Shown here piece after piece: positions 34,700 through 42,297 of a stretch of 49,817 nucleotides of DNA; the stretch's first letter is position 1, and the number at the start of each line of letters is the position of its first letter. The stretch spans positions 1 to 49,817 of the forward strand of contig DATLNZ010000154.1 of assembly GCA_035536535.1 (NCBI GenBank), written 5' to 3'. The stretch comes from Actinomycetota bacterium (GTDB lineage Bacteria; Actinomycetota; JAICYB01). The notes beneath the pieces were generated by a model. That model was not told the origin of the DNA, did not search any database, and saw only the letters and a list, made by a program, of their open reading frames with translations. The position numbers and the translations under genes were made by a program.

Positions 34700-34992
34700 G
34701 CGTGACGTCCCTTCTTTAAGAGGTGAGAAGTGGTGGTATTCGCAGCCTTGTCTCGGCTGCGCAGGGTGAAAGTCTCCGGAACTTCGTCCACGCCAGGCTC
34801 CCGGAGCGGGTGGCAGCGGCCGAGCCTCCGAACGGCGAGATAGATGCCACCCGCGGCTCCGTGGCGCTCGACCGCCGACACCGCGTACTCAGAACAGCTC
34901 GGGGAAAACCGGCACCGGGGGGCGAGGGAGGGTGATATCCCCTTCTGGTACACGTGTATCAGGAAGAGCACCATCCGTTGCTGCAGGCTCAT
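34696..34992 (-). CDS. yidD: Membrane protein insertion efficiency factor YidD
   Basis: A 98-residue protein with the family signature YQKGISPSLAPRCRFSPSCS followed by EYA. It is thought to assist YidC-mediated insertion. Cys residues in CRFSPSC and CHP are conserved in the family. The last 25 residues (FTLRSRDKAANTTTS) are outside the core and may vary. The start overlaps the rnpA stop and the stop overlaps the yidC start, so the four genes rpmH-rnpA-yidD-yidC are coupled. Confidence 0.94.
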   Translation of the reverse strand: MSLQQRMVLFLIHVYQKGISPSLAPRCRFSPSCSEYAVSAVERHGAAGGIYLAVRRLGRCHPLREPGVDEVPETFTLRSRDKAANTTTSHLLKKGRHA

Positions 34993-35345
34993 CTCGTGCC
35001 GCCCTCTGATCCTGTTCGCGCCCGTCCCAGGGCGTCACCGAGCTCGGTCCTCAGCTCGGCCGGCTCGACTGCCGCGGCCCGTGGCCTCGCCACCACCACT
35101 ACGTCCGCCGGCTCTTCTGAGTCACTGGACAGGGATCGTGCCGCCTCTCGAAGAACCCTTTTGACCCGGTTCCTCTGGACGGCGCCTCCGACGCGCCTCG
35201 AGACGGCGAAGCCGAATCGCGGCGCGCCCGATCCCTCGTCCCGAAGCGAATAGTACAAGACCAGGCAGGACCCGGACACGGCGCGGCCGGCCCGGATCAC
35301 CCCCTGGAAGTCCTGCGAGCGCCTGAGACGTTGCGCTCGCCTCAT
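34989..35345 (-). CDS. rnpA: Ribonuclease P protein component
   Basis: A 118-residue basic protein. The start [20 protein letters not shown] and the RNR box region [14 protein letters not shown] identify RnpA. It binds the RNase P RNA (not encoded here) to mature tRNA 5' ends. The strand [13 protein letters not shown] is conserved. ATG 35345 overlaps the rpmH stop (ATGA). An acidic/basic mixed tail ([18 protein letters not shown]) follows. Confidence 0.95.
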
Positions 35346-35476
35346 ACCGCCAGCTGCTGCCTGCCTTTCGCCCGTCTGCGGCGGAGAATCGCGCGGCCCC
35401 CGGGTGTGCGCATGCGCTTGCGGAAGCCGTGGGTCCGCTGGCGCCGGCGGTTGTGTGGCTGGTAGGTCCTCTTCAT
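35342..35476 (-). CDS. rpmH: 50S ribosomal protein L34
   Basis: A 44-residue protein, exactly the usual L34 length, [20 protein letters not shown] onward, ending [16 protein letters not shown] 35476 follows AGGATT; a longer open frame upstream (to 35548) is not real. It is the first gene of the rpmH-rnpA-yidD-yidC unit. A promoter is seen upstream: TTGACC at 35543-35548 and TAGCCT at 35520-35525 with a 17-base spacer, all on the minus strand. Confidence 0.97.
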
Positions 35477-35519
35477 GACAATCCTGTGAATCCTCTGTTG
35501 GACGAAGGGTGCCGCGAGC

Positions 35520-35548
35520 AGGCTACATGAAGCGAAACCGCAGGTCAA
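35520..35548 (-). promoter_or_regulatory. Promoter of rpmH
   Basis: On the minus strand TTGACC (35548 to 35543), 17 bases, then TAGCCT (35525 to 35520). It is about 44 bases upstream of the rpmH ATG. Its -35 box is one arm of a perfect inverted repeat shared with a promoter on the other strand. Confidence 0.65.
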
Positions 35549-35555
35549 ACGCGCA

Positions 35556-35585
35556 TTGACCGCCTGGTTGCGGGAGGGCTAAGAT
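35556..35585 (+). promoter_or_regulatory. Rightward promoter toward dnaA
   Basis: TTGACC (35556-35561), an 18-base spacer, then TAAGAT (35580-35585). Transcription should begin near 35592. Its -35 box and the rpmH -35 box form GGTCAA-N7-TTGACC, so the two promoters are back to back. Confidence 0.6.
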
Positions 35586-35590
35586 GCGCC

Positions 35591-35637
35591 TCGCTCGTGT
35601 GAGCGAAGGCGGCCCCAGAGGGCCGTCTTTTGTTTTT
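35591..35637 (+). terminator. Tandem hairpins ending in a T-run in the dnaA leader
   Basis: A small hairpin (TCGCTC-GTGT-GAGCGA, 35591-35606) abuts a 10-bp stem (AAGGCGGCCC / GGGCCGTCTT with one G-U pair, 35606-35629), followed by TTTGTTTTT. This is a strong rho-independent terminator on the plus strand. No plus-strand gene lies upstream, so it would stop transcripts from the promoter at 35556 after about 45 bases, either an attenuator for dnaA or a short RNA. Confidence 0.75.
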
Positions 35638-35645
35638 CCGCAACT

Positions 35646-35677
35646 GTATCCACACCTGTGGAAGGTGGTGTGGATAA
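35646..35677. promoter_or_regulatory. DnaA boxes upstream of dnaA
   Basis: TGTGGATAA at 35669-35677 is a perfect DnaA box (TTATCCACA) on the minus strand. GTATCCACA at 35646-35654 has one mismatch, and a partial TGTGGA lies between. They may autoregulate dnaA or be part of the origin. Confidence 0.65.
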
Positions 35678-35707
35678 CCGGATGAACGCCCAAGGGAGTG
35701 GTCTGAT

Positions 35708-37060
35708 TTGCCGGCGACAACAGCGCAAGACGTTTGGCAGGAGTGTCTGACGGTCGTCCGCGACCGTCTGTCCACCGCCGCATCCAGAGCCTGGTTCGAA
35801 GAGACCCACCCGCTGACGATGACCGACAGCGTCATCACGCTGCGGGCCCCCCATAGGTTCGCAAAGGAATGGCTGGAGCAGCGGTACTCGGGAGTCCTTC
35901 AGGACGCGGTGTCCCGCGCTGCCGGGAGGCCTCTGCACATCGAGATCGTGACGCCGGCCGGGGGAGTGGCCGTCCAGGCGCCGGCCCCTCTGCCCGCTCC
36001 GGTGGTCCAGCGTGAACCCGAGGCGGCTCCTGAGCTCAGTCCTCAGTACTCGTTTGAGAACTTTGTCATCGGGGCGTCGAACCGATTCGCCCACGCGGCC
36101 GCCCTGGCTGTGGCCGAGGCTCCCGCGAGCGCTTACAACCCTCTATTCGTCTATGGGGGCGCAGGTCTAGGCAAGACCCACCTCATGCACGCCATAGGCC
36201 GGCACACAAAGCAGCTGTACCCGCACCTGAAGGTGGAGTACGTGTCCTCCGAAAAGTTCATGAACGACTTCATCAACGCGATCAAGTCCGACCGCAGGCT
36301 CGCGTTCCAGCAGCGTTACCGGGAAAGCGACCTCCTTTTGATCGACGACATCCAATTTCTCGAGAACAAGGAGACGACGCAGGAGGAGTTCTTCCACACG
36401 TTCAACGCGCTGCACAACGCAAACCGCCAGATCGTCATCTCATCGGACCGGCCCCCCAAAAAGATGGCCACGCTGGAGGACCGGCTGAGGTCGCGGTTTG
36501 AGTGGGGGCTGATCACCGACATCCAACCCCCGGACCTGGAGACGCGCGTGGCCATCCTGCGGCGGAAAGCCGAGGACAAGCGCCTTTCCGTGCCGGAGGA
36601 CGTCCTGGACTACATCGCCTCAGGGGTCGAGGACTCGGTCCGGGAGTTGGAGGGGGCGCTGATACGGGTCATCGCCTACGCCTCTCTCAACGGCACCCAG
36701 GTCACCGTCCAGCTCGCGGAGGAGGTCCTGAGCCATCTGTTCCCGTCTTCGGGAGCCGAACCCGTCCGGGTGGACACGATCATGGCCGAGACGGCCGCCT
36801 ACTTCGGTCTGGGCGTGGACGATCTGCGCTCCCAGAACCGCTCAAAGTCCCTCGTGCACGCAAGGCAGATCGCGATGTACCTCGTACGGGAGCTGACCGA
36901 CCTGAGCCTTCCGAAGGTGGGGGAGATGTTCGGAGGACGCGACCACACGACAGTTCTGCACGCCGTGAAGAAGATCGCCGCCGTGATCGGGGAGAAGAGG
37001 CTTGTGTATCACCAGATCCAGGACCTGACCACCCGCATCAAACGGCGCAGCGGCACCTAG
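35708..37060 (+). CDS. dnaA: Chromosomal replication initiator protein DnaA
   Basis: A 450-residue protein with all four domains. Domain I (1-80) has [14 protein letters not shown]. The linker (about 82-112) is short and Pro-rich. The AAA+ domain has Walker A GGAGLGKT (150-157), Walker [15 protein letters not shown] (209-222) and the sensor segment. The C-terminal DNA-binding domain has [16 protein letters not shown] and the signature [15 protein letters not shown]. It starts with TTG at 35708, behind GGGAG, a rare start that can lower translation. It binds DnaA boxes and opens the origin. Confidence 0.96.
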
Positions 37061-37265
37061 GGACAGGCTGGGGACCGACGGTGGGGCTAACTCGGATGGC
37101 TGACGGGCGTGAACAGCTTGTCATTGCGCGTCCCGATACTGTCCACACCCCCGGCAGGCCTTCCCACGTGCACAGGAGCAGGGTTACGAACAGCATCCAC
37201 AGCACCTACTGCTACTCCTACCAGATATCTCTGTAAAAGCAGAAGAACGAACCGGAGGCCCACAG
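37061..37265. other. Candidate oriC or part of it (dnaA-dnaN spacer)
   Basis: The 205-bp spacer holds CTGTCCACA (37139-37147, one mismatch to TTGTCCACA) and GCATCCACA (37193-37201, two mismatches to TTATCCACA). The only mildly AT-rich zone is about 37210-37240. In most actinobacteria the origin is this spacer and much longer with many boxes, so the assignment is weak. The rpmH-dnaA spacer has the better box. Confidence 0.4.
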
Positions 37266-38348
37266 ATGAAGCTCATCGCCCCGAAAGACGAACTGGCACG
37301 CGCACTTCAGACGGTTCTGCGAAGTGTCGGAGCGAGAGCCGGAATTCCGGCGTTGTCCGGTGTCCTGATGGAGCTCACCGACGCAGACCTCACGCTTACG
37401 ACAACCGACCTGGAGCTCACCACCCGGGTCCGGATGCCACTTTCGGGGGAAGCCGGCAGCGTGGTCGTGCCTGCCCGGTACCTCGCGGAGATCGTCAGGA
37501 ACCTCAGGTCCGAGGACGTCGAGTTCGTGTCCGACAACGGGACGCTGCGGATCACCGGAGGCCGCGCCAAGTTCAGCCTCCGCACCCTGCAGGCCGAGGA
37601 CTTCCCGAAAACGGAGATCGCCGAGGAGGCCCACAGGCTGTCGGTGCCGGCGGAGTTGTTCGCCACGGCGCTGGCCCAGGTGGCTCCTGCGGCATCGCGC
37701 GACGAGACCCGGCCGATCCTCACCGGCGTGCTGTTTGAGGGCGATGAGTCGGAGCTGCGCCTAGTGGCGACGGACTCCTACCGGTTGTCGCTTCGCAGGA
37801 TCCCGATCCAGGGCGCGGCTCAGACGAAGCTGCTTGTCCCCGCACGGGCGGTCGTCGAGGTGGCGAAGATCGCTACTGACGGTGACGTCACCATCGAGGT
37901 ATCCGGGTCGCAGGTCCGCTTTGAGGCCGGGAACGTATCGATCTCCAGCCGGCTGATCGAAGGCGAGTTCCCCGAGTACAGGAAGCTGCTTCCCACGGAC
38001 CTGCCGAACCGCCTGCAGATCTCGAGATCCCGGCTCATCGAATCGCTGAGGCAGGTGTCGGTGATGGCACAGGATGCCACTCCCGTGTTCGTGGACCTCG
38101 ATGAGGGACGTATTCGGCTGCACTGCACCCCTCAGGGTCTCGGAGAAGCCGACATCGACATCGAGGGCGACTACACGGGGGAACCGGTCAGGGCGGCGTT
38201 TAACGCCGCATACCTCGAAGCCGGCGTGTCTGCCGTGGAGACCGAGGAGATTCGGCTGGAGTTGTCGGACCCGCAAAGGCCCGTCATCGTCCGCGGAACC
38301 GACAACGACGACTTCCGCTATCTGCTCATGCCGATCCGGGTGGGCTGA
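37266..38348 (+). CDS. dnaN: DNA polymerase III beta clamp
   Basis: A 360-residue protein with three clamp domains. It opens MKLIAPKDELARALQTVLRS, and shows VPARYLAEIVRNL, RLSVPAELFATAL, DSYRLSLR and the C-terminal YLLMPIRVG, typical of the peptide-binding pocket. It forms the sliding ring that holds polymerases, MutS/ligase and Hda-type partners. RBS CGGAGG lies seven bases before the ATG. It is followed by recF. Confidence 0.96.
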   Translation: MKLIAPKDELARALQTVLRSVGARAGIPALSGVLMELTDADLTLTTTDLELTTRVRMPLSGEAGSVVVPARYLAEIVRNLRSEDVEFVSDNGTLRITGGRAKFSLRTLQAEDFPKTEIAEEAHRLSVPAELFATALAQVAPAASRDETRPILTGVLFEGDESELRLVATDSYRLSLRRIPIQGAAQTKLLVPARAVVEVAKIATDGDVTIEVSGSQVRFEAGNVSISSRLIEGEFPEYRKLLPTDLPNRLQISRSRLIESLRQVSVMAQDATPVFVDLDEGRIRLHCTPQGLGEADIDIEGDYTGEPVRAAFNAAYLEAGVSAVETEEIRLELSDPQRPVIVRGTDNDDFRYLLMPIRVG

Positions 38349-39804: not shown

Positions 39805-42297
39805 CTACCCCTCCTCCTCCTCGGACTCCCCCGACAGGATGGGGGCCGCCGACGCAACCGTCTGTCCGGTGTCGAGGTTCATGATGCGGACTCCCGTGGC
39901 GTCGCGCCCCTGCGAGGAGATACCGCGGACCGGCATCCGCACCGTCACGCCTCCGGACGAGATGGCGATGATCTCGTCGTCCAGCCCGACCATGAATGCA
40001 GCCACGACATAGCCCTTCGTTGCGGTGAGCTTGATGCCCCGCACTCCCTGGCCCCCGCGGCCTTGGCGGCTGAACCGGTCCAGCTGGGTCCGCTTTCCGA
40101 AGCCGGCCTCCGTGACCACGAGGATGCTCGTGTCGTCGCGGGCCACGTCGCACGAGACCACCTCGTCGGCGGCCTTGAGCCTCATGCCCCGGACTCCGGC
40201 GGCGTCGCGCCCCATGGAGCGGACCTCCGACTCGTTAAAGCGTATGGCCATGCCGTTGCGGCTGACCATGAAGATGTTTTCGTCGCCGCGGGTCTTGATC
40301 ACACGGACGAGCTCGTCGCCGCGCTTGAGGCTGATGGCGATAAACCCCTCGCGCCGGCTCTTGTCGTACTCCTGCAGCGCGGTCTTCTTCACCTGGCCCT
40401 TTTTGGTCGCAAAAAACAGGAACCGGCCGGCCTCGAAGTCGCGCGTCTCGATGACCGCCTCGATGCGCTCGTCCGGCGACAGGGGCAGAAGGTTGATCGC
40501 GGCCGTTCCGCGTGCCGTGCGGTCCTTCATCGGGATCTCGTGTACGCGGAGCCTGAACACGCGTCCGCGGTTGGAGAAAAGCAGCAGGTAGGAGTGGGTG
40601 CTGGTGTAGATGATGTCCGTCACCAGGTCTTCTTCTTTGAGCTTGGCCCCAGCGACGCCGCGCCCCCCGCGCCCTTGGGTTTTAAAGGCGCCGGACTGCA
40701 CGGTCTTGATGTAGCCGGCCTTGGTCATCGTGACGACGACCTGCTCGTCGGTGATGAAGTCCTCGATGCTCATCTCGCCCGGGTCGAAAGTGATCTCAGT
40801 GCGACGGGGCGATGCGAATCGACGTTTGATCTCCGCCAGCTCGTCCTTGATGACTCCGCGGAGCTTGGCCGGGTCCGCAAGAATCGACTCCAGCTCGGCG
40901 ATCGTGCGCCGCAACTCGGTCAGCTCGTCCTGGAGCTCCGCCCGCGCCAGCCGGGTCAGGCGGGCAAGCGTGGTGTCCAGAATGTAGTTGGCCTGGGCTT
41001 CCGAGAAGTCGAAGGGGACGGCCATCAGGCCGTTTCGGGCCGCCTCGCGGTTCTCCGAGCCCCGGATGAGCGTGATGATCTCGTCGATCATGTCCAGGGC
41101 CTTCAGCAGCCCCTCCACGAGGTGGGCCCGGTCCCGCGCCTTTCGGAGGCGGAACTGCGTCCGCCGCGTAACGACGTCCACCTGGTGCTCGACGTAGGCC
41201 GTGAGCGACTGGGCCAGGTTGAGGGTTCGCGGCACCCCGTCCACCAGCGCGACCGTGTTGACGCCGAACGTGGCCTGCATCGGCGTGTGTTTGAACAGGT
41301 TGTTGAGGACCACGTTGGCGTTGGCGTCGCGCTTCAGCTCGATGACCAGCCGCGTCTTGCCTTTCGCCGACTCGTCGTTGACGTTGCGGATGCCGTCGAT
41401 CTGCTTTGCCAGCGCGAGCTCCGCGATCTTGCCGCCGATCGACCCGGTGCTGGTCTGGTACGGGATCTCCGTCACGACGATGGACGTGCCGCGTTTGTCC
41501 TCGGTGATTTCGGCCCGGGCCCGCATCCGGACGGACCCGCGTCCGGTCCTGTAGGCGTCCAGGATCCCGGCCCTGCCCAGGATGAGCGCGCCGGTGGGGA
41601 AGTCCGGACCCTTTACGAACGCCATGAGGTCGTCCGGGGTGGCCTCGGGGTTGTCGATCAGGTGGACGGTGGCGTCGACGATCTCCGTCAGGTTGTGGGG
41701 AGGGATGTTCGTCGCCATTCCAACCGCGATCCCCTGGCTGCCGTTGACCAGCAGGTTCGGGAACCGCGACGGCAGGACCGTGGGCTCCTTGAACTCACCG
41801 GTGTAGTTGTCCACGAAGTCGACGGTCTCCTCGTCGATGCCCTCCAGCATCTGGTTGGCCAGCTGGGCCAGCCGGGCCTCGGTGTACCTTTCGGCGGCGG
41901 GCGGGTCGTCGGGGGAGCCGAAGTTGCCGTGGCCGTCCACCAGCGGGTGCCGGAGGCTGAAGTCCTGCGCCATCCGTGCCAGCGCGTCGTATATCGCCGA
42001 CGGGCCGTGTGGGTGGTACTGCCCCATGACGTGACCGGTGATCCGGGCGCATTTCATGTGCGCCTTGTCGGAACGAGCCCCGACGGTCTGCATTCCGTAG
42101 AGGATCCGGCGGTGGACGGGCTTCAGGCCGTCGCGGGCGTCCGGCAGGGCGCGCTGGACGATGACCGACATGGAGTAGTCCAGAAAGGACCGCTCCATCT
42201 CCTCCTGTATCTCGATGGGCTCGATGAGACCCAGAGAGCTCGCGTCACCCGCGCCGTTGGGCGAGTCGCCGTTGCCACCGCGCACCCTACGGCTCAT
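39805..42297 (-). CDS. gyrA: DNA gyrase subunit A
   Basis: An 830-residue protein. The N-terminal domain has the catalytic Tyr138 in AAERYTEARL, and the quinolone pocket reads YHPHGPSAIYDALARM (94-109). The residue equivalent to E. coli Asp82 is Pro99, while Ser83 and Asp87 equivalents are kept (Ser100, Asp104). The C-terminal beta-pinwheel repeats follow with a GyrA box TQGRGGRGV. It cuts and rejoins DNA to add negative supercoils with GyrB. ATG overlaps the gyrB stop. The gene is inverted relative to dnaA, unlike the usual actinobacterial order. Confidence 0.96.
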   Translation of the reverse strand: MSRRVRGGNGDSPNGAGDASSLGLIEPIEIQEEMERSFLDYSMSVIVQRALPDARDGLKPVHRRILYGMQTVGARSDKAHMKCARITGHVMGQYHPHGPSAIYDALARMAQDFSLRHPLVDGHGNFGSPDDPPAAERYTEARLAQLANQMLEGIDEETVDFVDNYTGEFKEPTVLPSRFPNLLVNGSQGIAVGMATNIPPHNLTEIVDATVHLIDNPEATPDDLMAFVKGPDFPTGALILGRAGILDAYRTGRGSVRMRARAEITEDKRGTSIVVTEIPYQTSTGSIGGKIAELALAKQIDGIRNVNDESAKGKTRLVIELKRDANANVVLNNLFKHTPMQATFGVNTVALVDGVPRTLNLAQSLTAYVEHQVDVVTRRTQFRLRKARDRAHLVEGLLKALDMIDEIITLIRGSENREAARNGLMAVPFDFSEAQANYILDTTLARLTRLARAELQDELTELRRTIAELESILADPAKLRGVIKDELAEIKRRFASPRRTEITFDPGEMSIEDFITDEQVVVTMTKAGYIKTVQSGAFKTQGRGGRGVAGAKLKEEDLVTDIIYTSTHSYLLLFSNRGRVFRLRVHEIPMKDRTARGTAAINLLPLSPDERIEAVIETRDFEAGRFLFFATKKGQVKKTALQEYDKSRREGFIAISLKRGDELVRVIKTRGDENIFMVSRNGMAIRFNESEVRSMGRDAAGVRGMRLKAADEVVSCDVARDDTSILVVTEAGFGKRTQLDRFSRQGRGGQGVRGIKLTATKGYVVAAFMVGLDDEIIAISSGGVTVRMPVRGISSQGRDATGVRIMNLDTGQTVASAAPILSGESEEEEG

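Follow-up and report, generated by a model that had tools for sequence, protein, structure and literature searches.

Introduction

In the trp leader and in riboswitch terminators, attenuation works through an intrinsic terminator that lies within the 5′ leader of the controlled gene. Control of dnaA is known mainly at the promoter. One report describes binding of DnaA to its own promoter region in E. coli, B. subtilis, Streptomyces lividans and slow-growing mycobacteria (PMC8203912). The dnaA promoter region of M. tuberculosis has two mapped transcription starts, and the word terminator is absent from the main text of that study (PMC3982210). For E. coli, a study of bidirectional promoters describes pairs that share a −10 element, with starts 10–23 bp apart in the cases tested (PMC12825309). 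Our literature search, which left subscription papers mostly outside its reach, did not turn up any account in which an intrinsic terminator separates a dnaA promoter from dnaA.

Here we describe such an arrangement, predicted from sequence, in the spacer between rpmH and dnaA of an Actinomycetota genome. As in the trp leader and riboswitch attenuators, a promoter, a short leader, an intrinsic terminator and a gene can be recognized. In contrast to those systems, we could find neither a leader peptide nor a ligand-binding domain nor a shared antiterminator at the locus, the RNA from promoter to terminator end would be only about 45 nt, and the gene is dnaA. It resembles the DnaA autoregulation systems (PMC8203912) in that the promoter region of dnaA carries DnaA boxes, and differs from them in the predicted terminator between promoter and boxes. 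With the E. coli bidirectional promoters (PMC12825309) it shares opposite promoters within one short stretch, but these are two separate promoters whose −35 boxes lie 7 bp apart.

Results and Discussion

Two predicted promoters in the rpmH-dnaA spacer

The window, that is, the whole 49,817-nt stretch of DNA analysed, is one contig (C154) of a 2.62 Mb genome in 205 contigs. Within it, rpmH (ribosomal protein L34, 44 aa; 35342–35476, minus strand) is followed by dnaA (450 aa, TTG start; 35708–37060, plus strand) and then by dnaN at 37266. We compared the locus with those of two further genomes of the class, G001 and G002; the three represent different genera and make up the entire class comparison (n = 3). 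The spacer measures 232 nt in the window and 225–295 nt across the three genomes. A Shine-Dalgarno-like GGGAG was located by eye at 35694–35698 on the plus strand.

Further along the window, gyrA (39805–42297 and beyond) lies on the minus strand and faces dnaA-dnaN-recF; judged by its position, the ORF upstream of gyrA may be gyrB. In G002, gyrA and dnaA lie on the same strand, unlike in the window, and either a rearrangement or an assembly join could account for this difference.

The initial annotation had described two −35 boxes in mirror image, and direct reading bears this out: GGTCAA (35543–35548) and TTGACC (35556–35561) are separated by 7 nt, and the resulting 19-bp inverted repeat (35543–35561) is the sole exact match to this pattern within the whole window. 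On the plus strand, TTGACC is followed after 18 nt by TAAGAT (35580–35585), so that the rightward promoter proposed in that annotation is present in sequence and its start, placed there near 35592, is expected at about 35591–35593. A promoter scan of 34800–36800 returned this one promoter-like site, compared with 0.1 in shuffled sequence. Apart from the −10 element of this promoter, the dnaA strand of the spacer has no TANNNT in any of the three class genomes. Between the T run described below and the start codon, TANNNT is absent from all three spacers, although with n = 3 such an absence is fairly often expected by chance, and non-consensus promoters fall outside the pattern. Rightward promoter-like sites also occur in 45 of 72 other rpmH-dnaA spacers of the phylum, and a dnaA-directed promoter in such a spacer is therefore usual.

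On the minus strand, the other half of the repeat provides the −35 TTGACC of the putative rpmH promoter (35543–35548; CCGCAGGTCA on the plus strand, invariant in the three genera). Its −10, TAGCCT, is the reverse complement of 35520–35525 and lies 17 nt away. The two −10 boxes (35520–35525 and 35580–35585) are thus 54 bp apart, with no shared −10 element. While the sequence proposed to drive rpmH is there in the window, it is kept in only two of the three genomes: G001 has TACCCT at the same place, and in G002 no TANNNT was found at that position. The rightward promoter is kept in all three.

The ATG within the rightward −10 was considered as the start of a leader peptide and rejected. It opens a reading frame, yet it lies upstream of the expected transcription start, and its frame relative to the DnaA boxes differs in G002 (by eye).

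A predicted terminator at the start of the dnaA leader

The two hairpins and TTTTGTTTTT that had been noted immediately after the rightward start are present. A 5′ hairpin, TCGCTC-gtgt-GAGCGA (35591–35606, plus strand), lies at the expected start or directly behind it and finds weak support in the relatives. It is followed by a predicted intrinsic terminator (35605–35637, plus strand), in which an 11-pair GC-rich hairpin (35605–35630) runs into the T run TTTTGTTTTT (35628–35637). A simple terminator scan of 34800–36800 gave one match and is not significant by itself, because 0.8 matches are expected in shuffled sequence. With a stricter rule, a hairpin and T run equalling the one scored appeared in none of 1000 dinucleotide shuffles of the window's spacer, in 29 of 1000 for G001 and in none of 1000 for G002. 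When the hairpin and T run also had to be linked to a promoter-like site, the corresponding counts in 1000 shuffles were 2, 1 and 0.

The 50-nt RNA of the window is predicted to fold into two tandem, abutting hairpins (−26.3 kcal/mol, z −4.0). Two tandem hairpins are likewise predicted for G001 (z −2.0), and in G002 the long terminator hairpin dominates and takes over part of the upstream one (z −4.3). Folded alone, the upstream stretch has z-scores of −2.6 in the window, −1.2 in G001 and −0.06 in G002. As this first hairpin is unusual in the window only, the evidence rests on the terminator hairpin, and the upstream hairpin must be regarded as weakly supported. No antiterminator fold common to the three leaders was seen in the predicted folds. 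Searches against Rfam gave only two tRNAs in the window at the gathering score and no regulatory RNA family on the leader; at E-values up to 5, the matches in 15 loci were limited to sub-threshold AsdA matches inside dnaA and others at chance level.

On a terminator score of the d'Aubenton-Carafa type, the window reaches 38.6 and G001 27.6; the value is −6.4 in G002, where the T run is interrupted and weak though the hairpin is the strongest of the three. For comparison we examined a sample of 442,913 bases from the genome to which the window belongs (41 sequences, 368 ORFs from crude calls). Of the 51 candidate hairpins in this sample, 30 lay within ORFs, 10 followed a same-strand ORF by no more than 150 nt, 10 adjoined a neighbour on the opposite strand and one fell into none of these groups. 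Six candidates no more than 36 nt from an ORF end had positive scores, and their range of 25.9 to 72.8 includes the values of the window and G001. Two further ones near ORF ends had negative scores, which shows that the separation achieved by the score is imperfect. The dnaA terminator shares a GGCCC-like core and an A/T-ending stem with the gene-end terminators. Based on these similarly scoring hairpins at ORF ends, the organism appears to use such intrinsic terminators at the ends of its genes. Elsewhere in this genome, a unit of about 280 nt occurs in similar form twice in tandem (L262, 11850–12350, contig C200), and in each copy a strong hairpin (GAAAGACCGCGG...CCGCGGTCTTTT) with a T run is accompanied by another GC hairpin; the unit may represent either a small RNA that was duplicated or a repeat.

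Conservation within the class and DnaA boxes

All three genera keep the same layout: a rightward promoter (TTGAC[CA], 18 or 19 nt, TANNAT) is followed within 60 nt by a GC hairpin and its T run, and then by DnaA boxes, a Shine-Dalgarno sequence and dnaA. The aligned blocks they have in common are CCGCAGGTCA, ATTGAC, TANNATGC, the terminator core CGGCC...GGGCCG with a T-rich stretch behind it, and the DnaA-box pair. The core pairs of the terminator stem are shared, and the outer pairs differ but stay paired (G·U, A-U or G-C; by eye). In a MAFFT alignment of the leaders the stems are poorly lined up. In the comparison among relatives that was proposed at the outset, the terminator hairpin and T run are kept in some form in all three genomes, and no sequence of the upstream hairpin is kept between the genera. 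A DNA search of 198 genomes of the phylum with 35535–35690 returned, among the matches listed, only short ones outside the class, the best of which align to the section of the query that contains the DnaA boxes.

With one mismatch allowed, the spacer (35477–35708) contains two DnaA boxes. The first, GTATCCACA, has one mismatch and lies on the plus strand at 35646–35654, 8 nt past the T run; the second is exact and lies on the minus strand at 35669–35677, reading TGTGGATAA on the plus strand. The distance from T run to first box, taken from coordinates, is 13 nt in G001 and 7 nt in G002. The dnaA-dnaN spacer (37061–37265) has no box with at most one mismatch, and G002 has three boxes in 13.5 kb. 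With two boxes upstream of dnaA, none in the dnaA-dnaN spacer and no dense cluster, the suggested link to an origin appears weak; the origin may have divergent boxes or be located elsewhere.

Proposed attenuation of dnaA and its alternatives

The sequence itself gives the order of the parts, which three genera keep, shows no second TANNNT on the dnaA strand and places similar terminators at gene ends in this genome. From this we infer that promoter and terminator probably work in the cell. We regard promoter-proximal attenuation of dnaA as the best explanation, and hold it to be narrowly probable, because a kept promoter is followed by a kept terminator ahead of an essential gene without another visible promoter. 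The interpretation in the initial annotation is supported in part, its attenuation reading by the promoter-terminator order in three of three class genomes and by spacers without a second dnaA-strand TANNNT.

In the mechanism that we propose, the rightward promoter would be dnaA's own, back to back with that of rpmH, and polymerase starting there would meet the intrinsic terminator after about 45 nt. The majority of initiations would then end as a 45-nt RNA with two hairpins, and dnaA mRNA would come only from the read-through fraction, which would pass the DnaA boxes 7–13 nt beyond the T run. Attenuation of this kind would hold dnaA low, possibly in an adjustable way. Several findings weigh against it: the T run of G002 is interrupted and has a negative terminator score, the G001 hairpin is matched in some of its shuffles, two gene-end candidates of this genome score negatively, the leaders share no antiterminator structure and match no known family of regulatory RNA, only three class genomes were compared, and a looser analogue exists outside the class (L038, below).

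Our preferred candidate for control of read-through is DnaA bound just downstream as a roadblock. DnaA at the boxes 7–13 nt past the T run would stall polymerase and so make it leave the template at the terminator. Once these boxes were freed, after initiation or by titration, dnaA transcripts would get through. We consider a DnaA-sensing attenuator of this form improbable as a whole. What DnaA would regulate in it is the passage of elongating polymerase into dnaA, and not access to the promoter. A terminator kept between dnaA promoter and boxes in three genera would mean that the level of the initiator is set at elongation, and under such control polymerase release could depend on the state of the DnaA pool.

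The main rival to attenuation, which we nevertheless think unlikely, is that the terminator acts as an insulator: the rightward promoter would be spill-over from the rpmH pair and make an unwanted transcript, and dnaA would use a non-consensus promoter in the DnaA-box region directly ahead of the gene. The terminator does precede the boxes, where an autoregulated promoter could lie, and divergent firing is common among E. coli promoters (PMC12825309). Such a hidden promoter is harder to reconcile with the missing TANNNT downstream of the T run in all three spacers, and spill-over with a rightward promoter that is better conserved than the leftward one. That the 45-nt RNA is itself the product, as a short regulatory or origin-linked RNA, we judge quite unlikely. 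Its good promoter match, strong fold and discrete predicted end would suit such a role; the upstream hairpin, however, has an ordinary fold in G001 and G002, the leader matches no Rfam family at the gathering score and the locus has no dense DnaA-box cluster. A trans-acting short RNA in particular is unlikely because the upstream hairpin keeps no sequence between genera, and this part of the initial proposal is accordingly the weaker one.

Two other readings concern single elements of the spacer. GGTCAA-N7-TTGACC could be the operator of a dimeric regulator, with the promoters secondary, and CCGCAGGTCA does stay unchanged in G002 although that genome has lost the leftward −10. We rejected the palindrome as an operator candidate: across the three class genomes the pattern shows no clear enrichment over its reversed control (19 vs. 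13, 14 vs. 8 and 12 vs. 12), and in two of them both halves stand at −35 spacing, which makes this reading highly unlikely. We give least credence to hairpins that would stabilize or structure the dnaA leader while the T run does not terminate. In G002 the hairpin is indeed the strongest of the three and the T run the weakest, but the T runs of the window and G001 are as good as those of gene-end terminators, and this last reading seems barely plausible.

Distribution outside the class

Under the strict rule, a promoter-linked hairpin and T run was found in all three class spacers, compared with three of 140 others, of which 68 came from a mixed set (genome_contigs) and 72 from the phylum sample. 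Two of the loci examined, L003 and L161, represent the same genome (spacers equal, first 700 bases compared), and both were counted. The other three positives (L010, L022 and L034) are Bacillota in which AT-rich inverted repeats of DnaA boxes form the hairpin. For the phylum, 178 of the 198 sampled genomes had a dnaA match, and from these were drawn the 107 dnaA loci outside the class (27 in L116–L142 and 80 in L143–L222), 72 of them with an adjacent rpmH. A separate scan of 47 stretches without adjacent rpmH (35 from the phylum and 12 of the 80 genome_contigs loci) gave two promoter-linked cases, both Paenibacillus (L004 and L012). Their hairpins follow an upstream same-strand ORF, about 8 nt past its stop in L004 and by tens of nt in L012. 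In L038 (Acidimicrobiales), a hairpin with a T-rich tail lies near 2900, directly before the DnaA boxes of dnaA and after a longer leader with CTTCCCC. As a looser analogue outside the class, it counts against strict uniqueness.

A separate observation concerns the motif CTTCCC[CT] in the 72 rpmH-dnaA spacers of other classes of the phylum, where it is found on the dnaA strand in 46 of 72 and on the opposite strand in 4 of 72 (54 and 11, respectively, for CTTCCC; examples are L134, L131, L142 and L121). It is absent from the three spacers of the window's class, and in the mixed set it shows no strand bias (11 vs. 10 of 68). The motif resembles the CUUCCCC loop of mraW RNA, and an Rfam search of 15 loci gave no match of that kind. 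Judged by eye, its usual place is between the promoter and the DnaA boxes, in many cases within the loop of a possible hairpin, and it may be an undescribed element of the dnaA leader.
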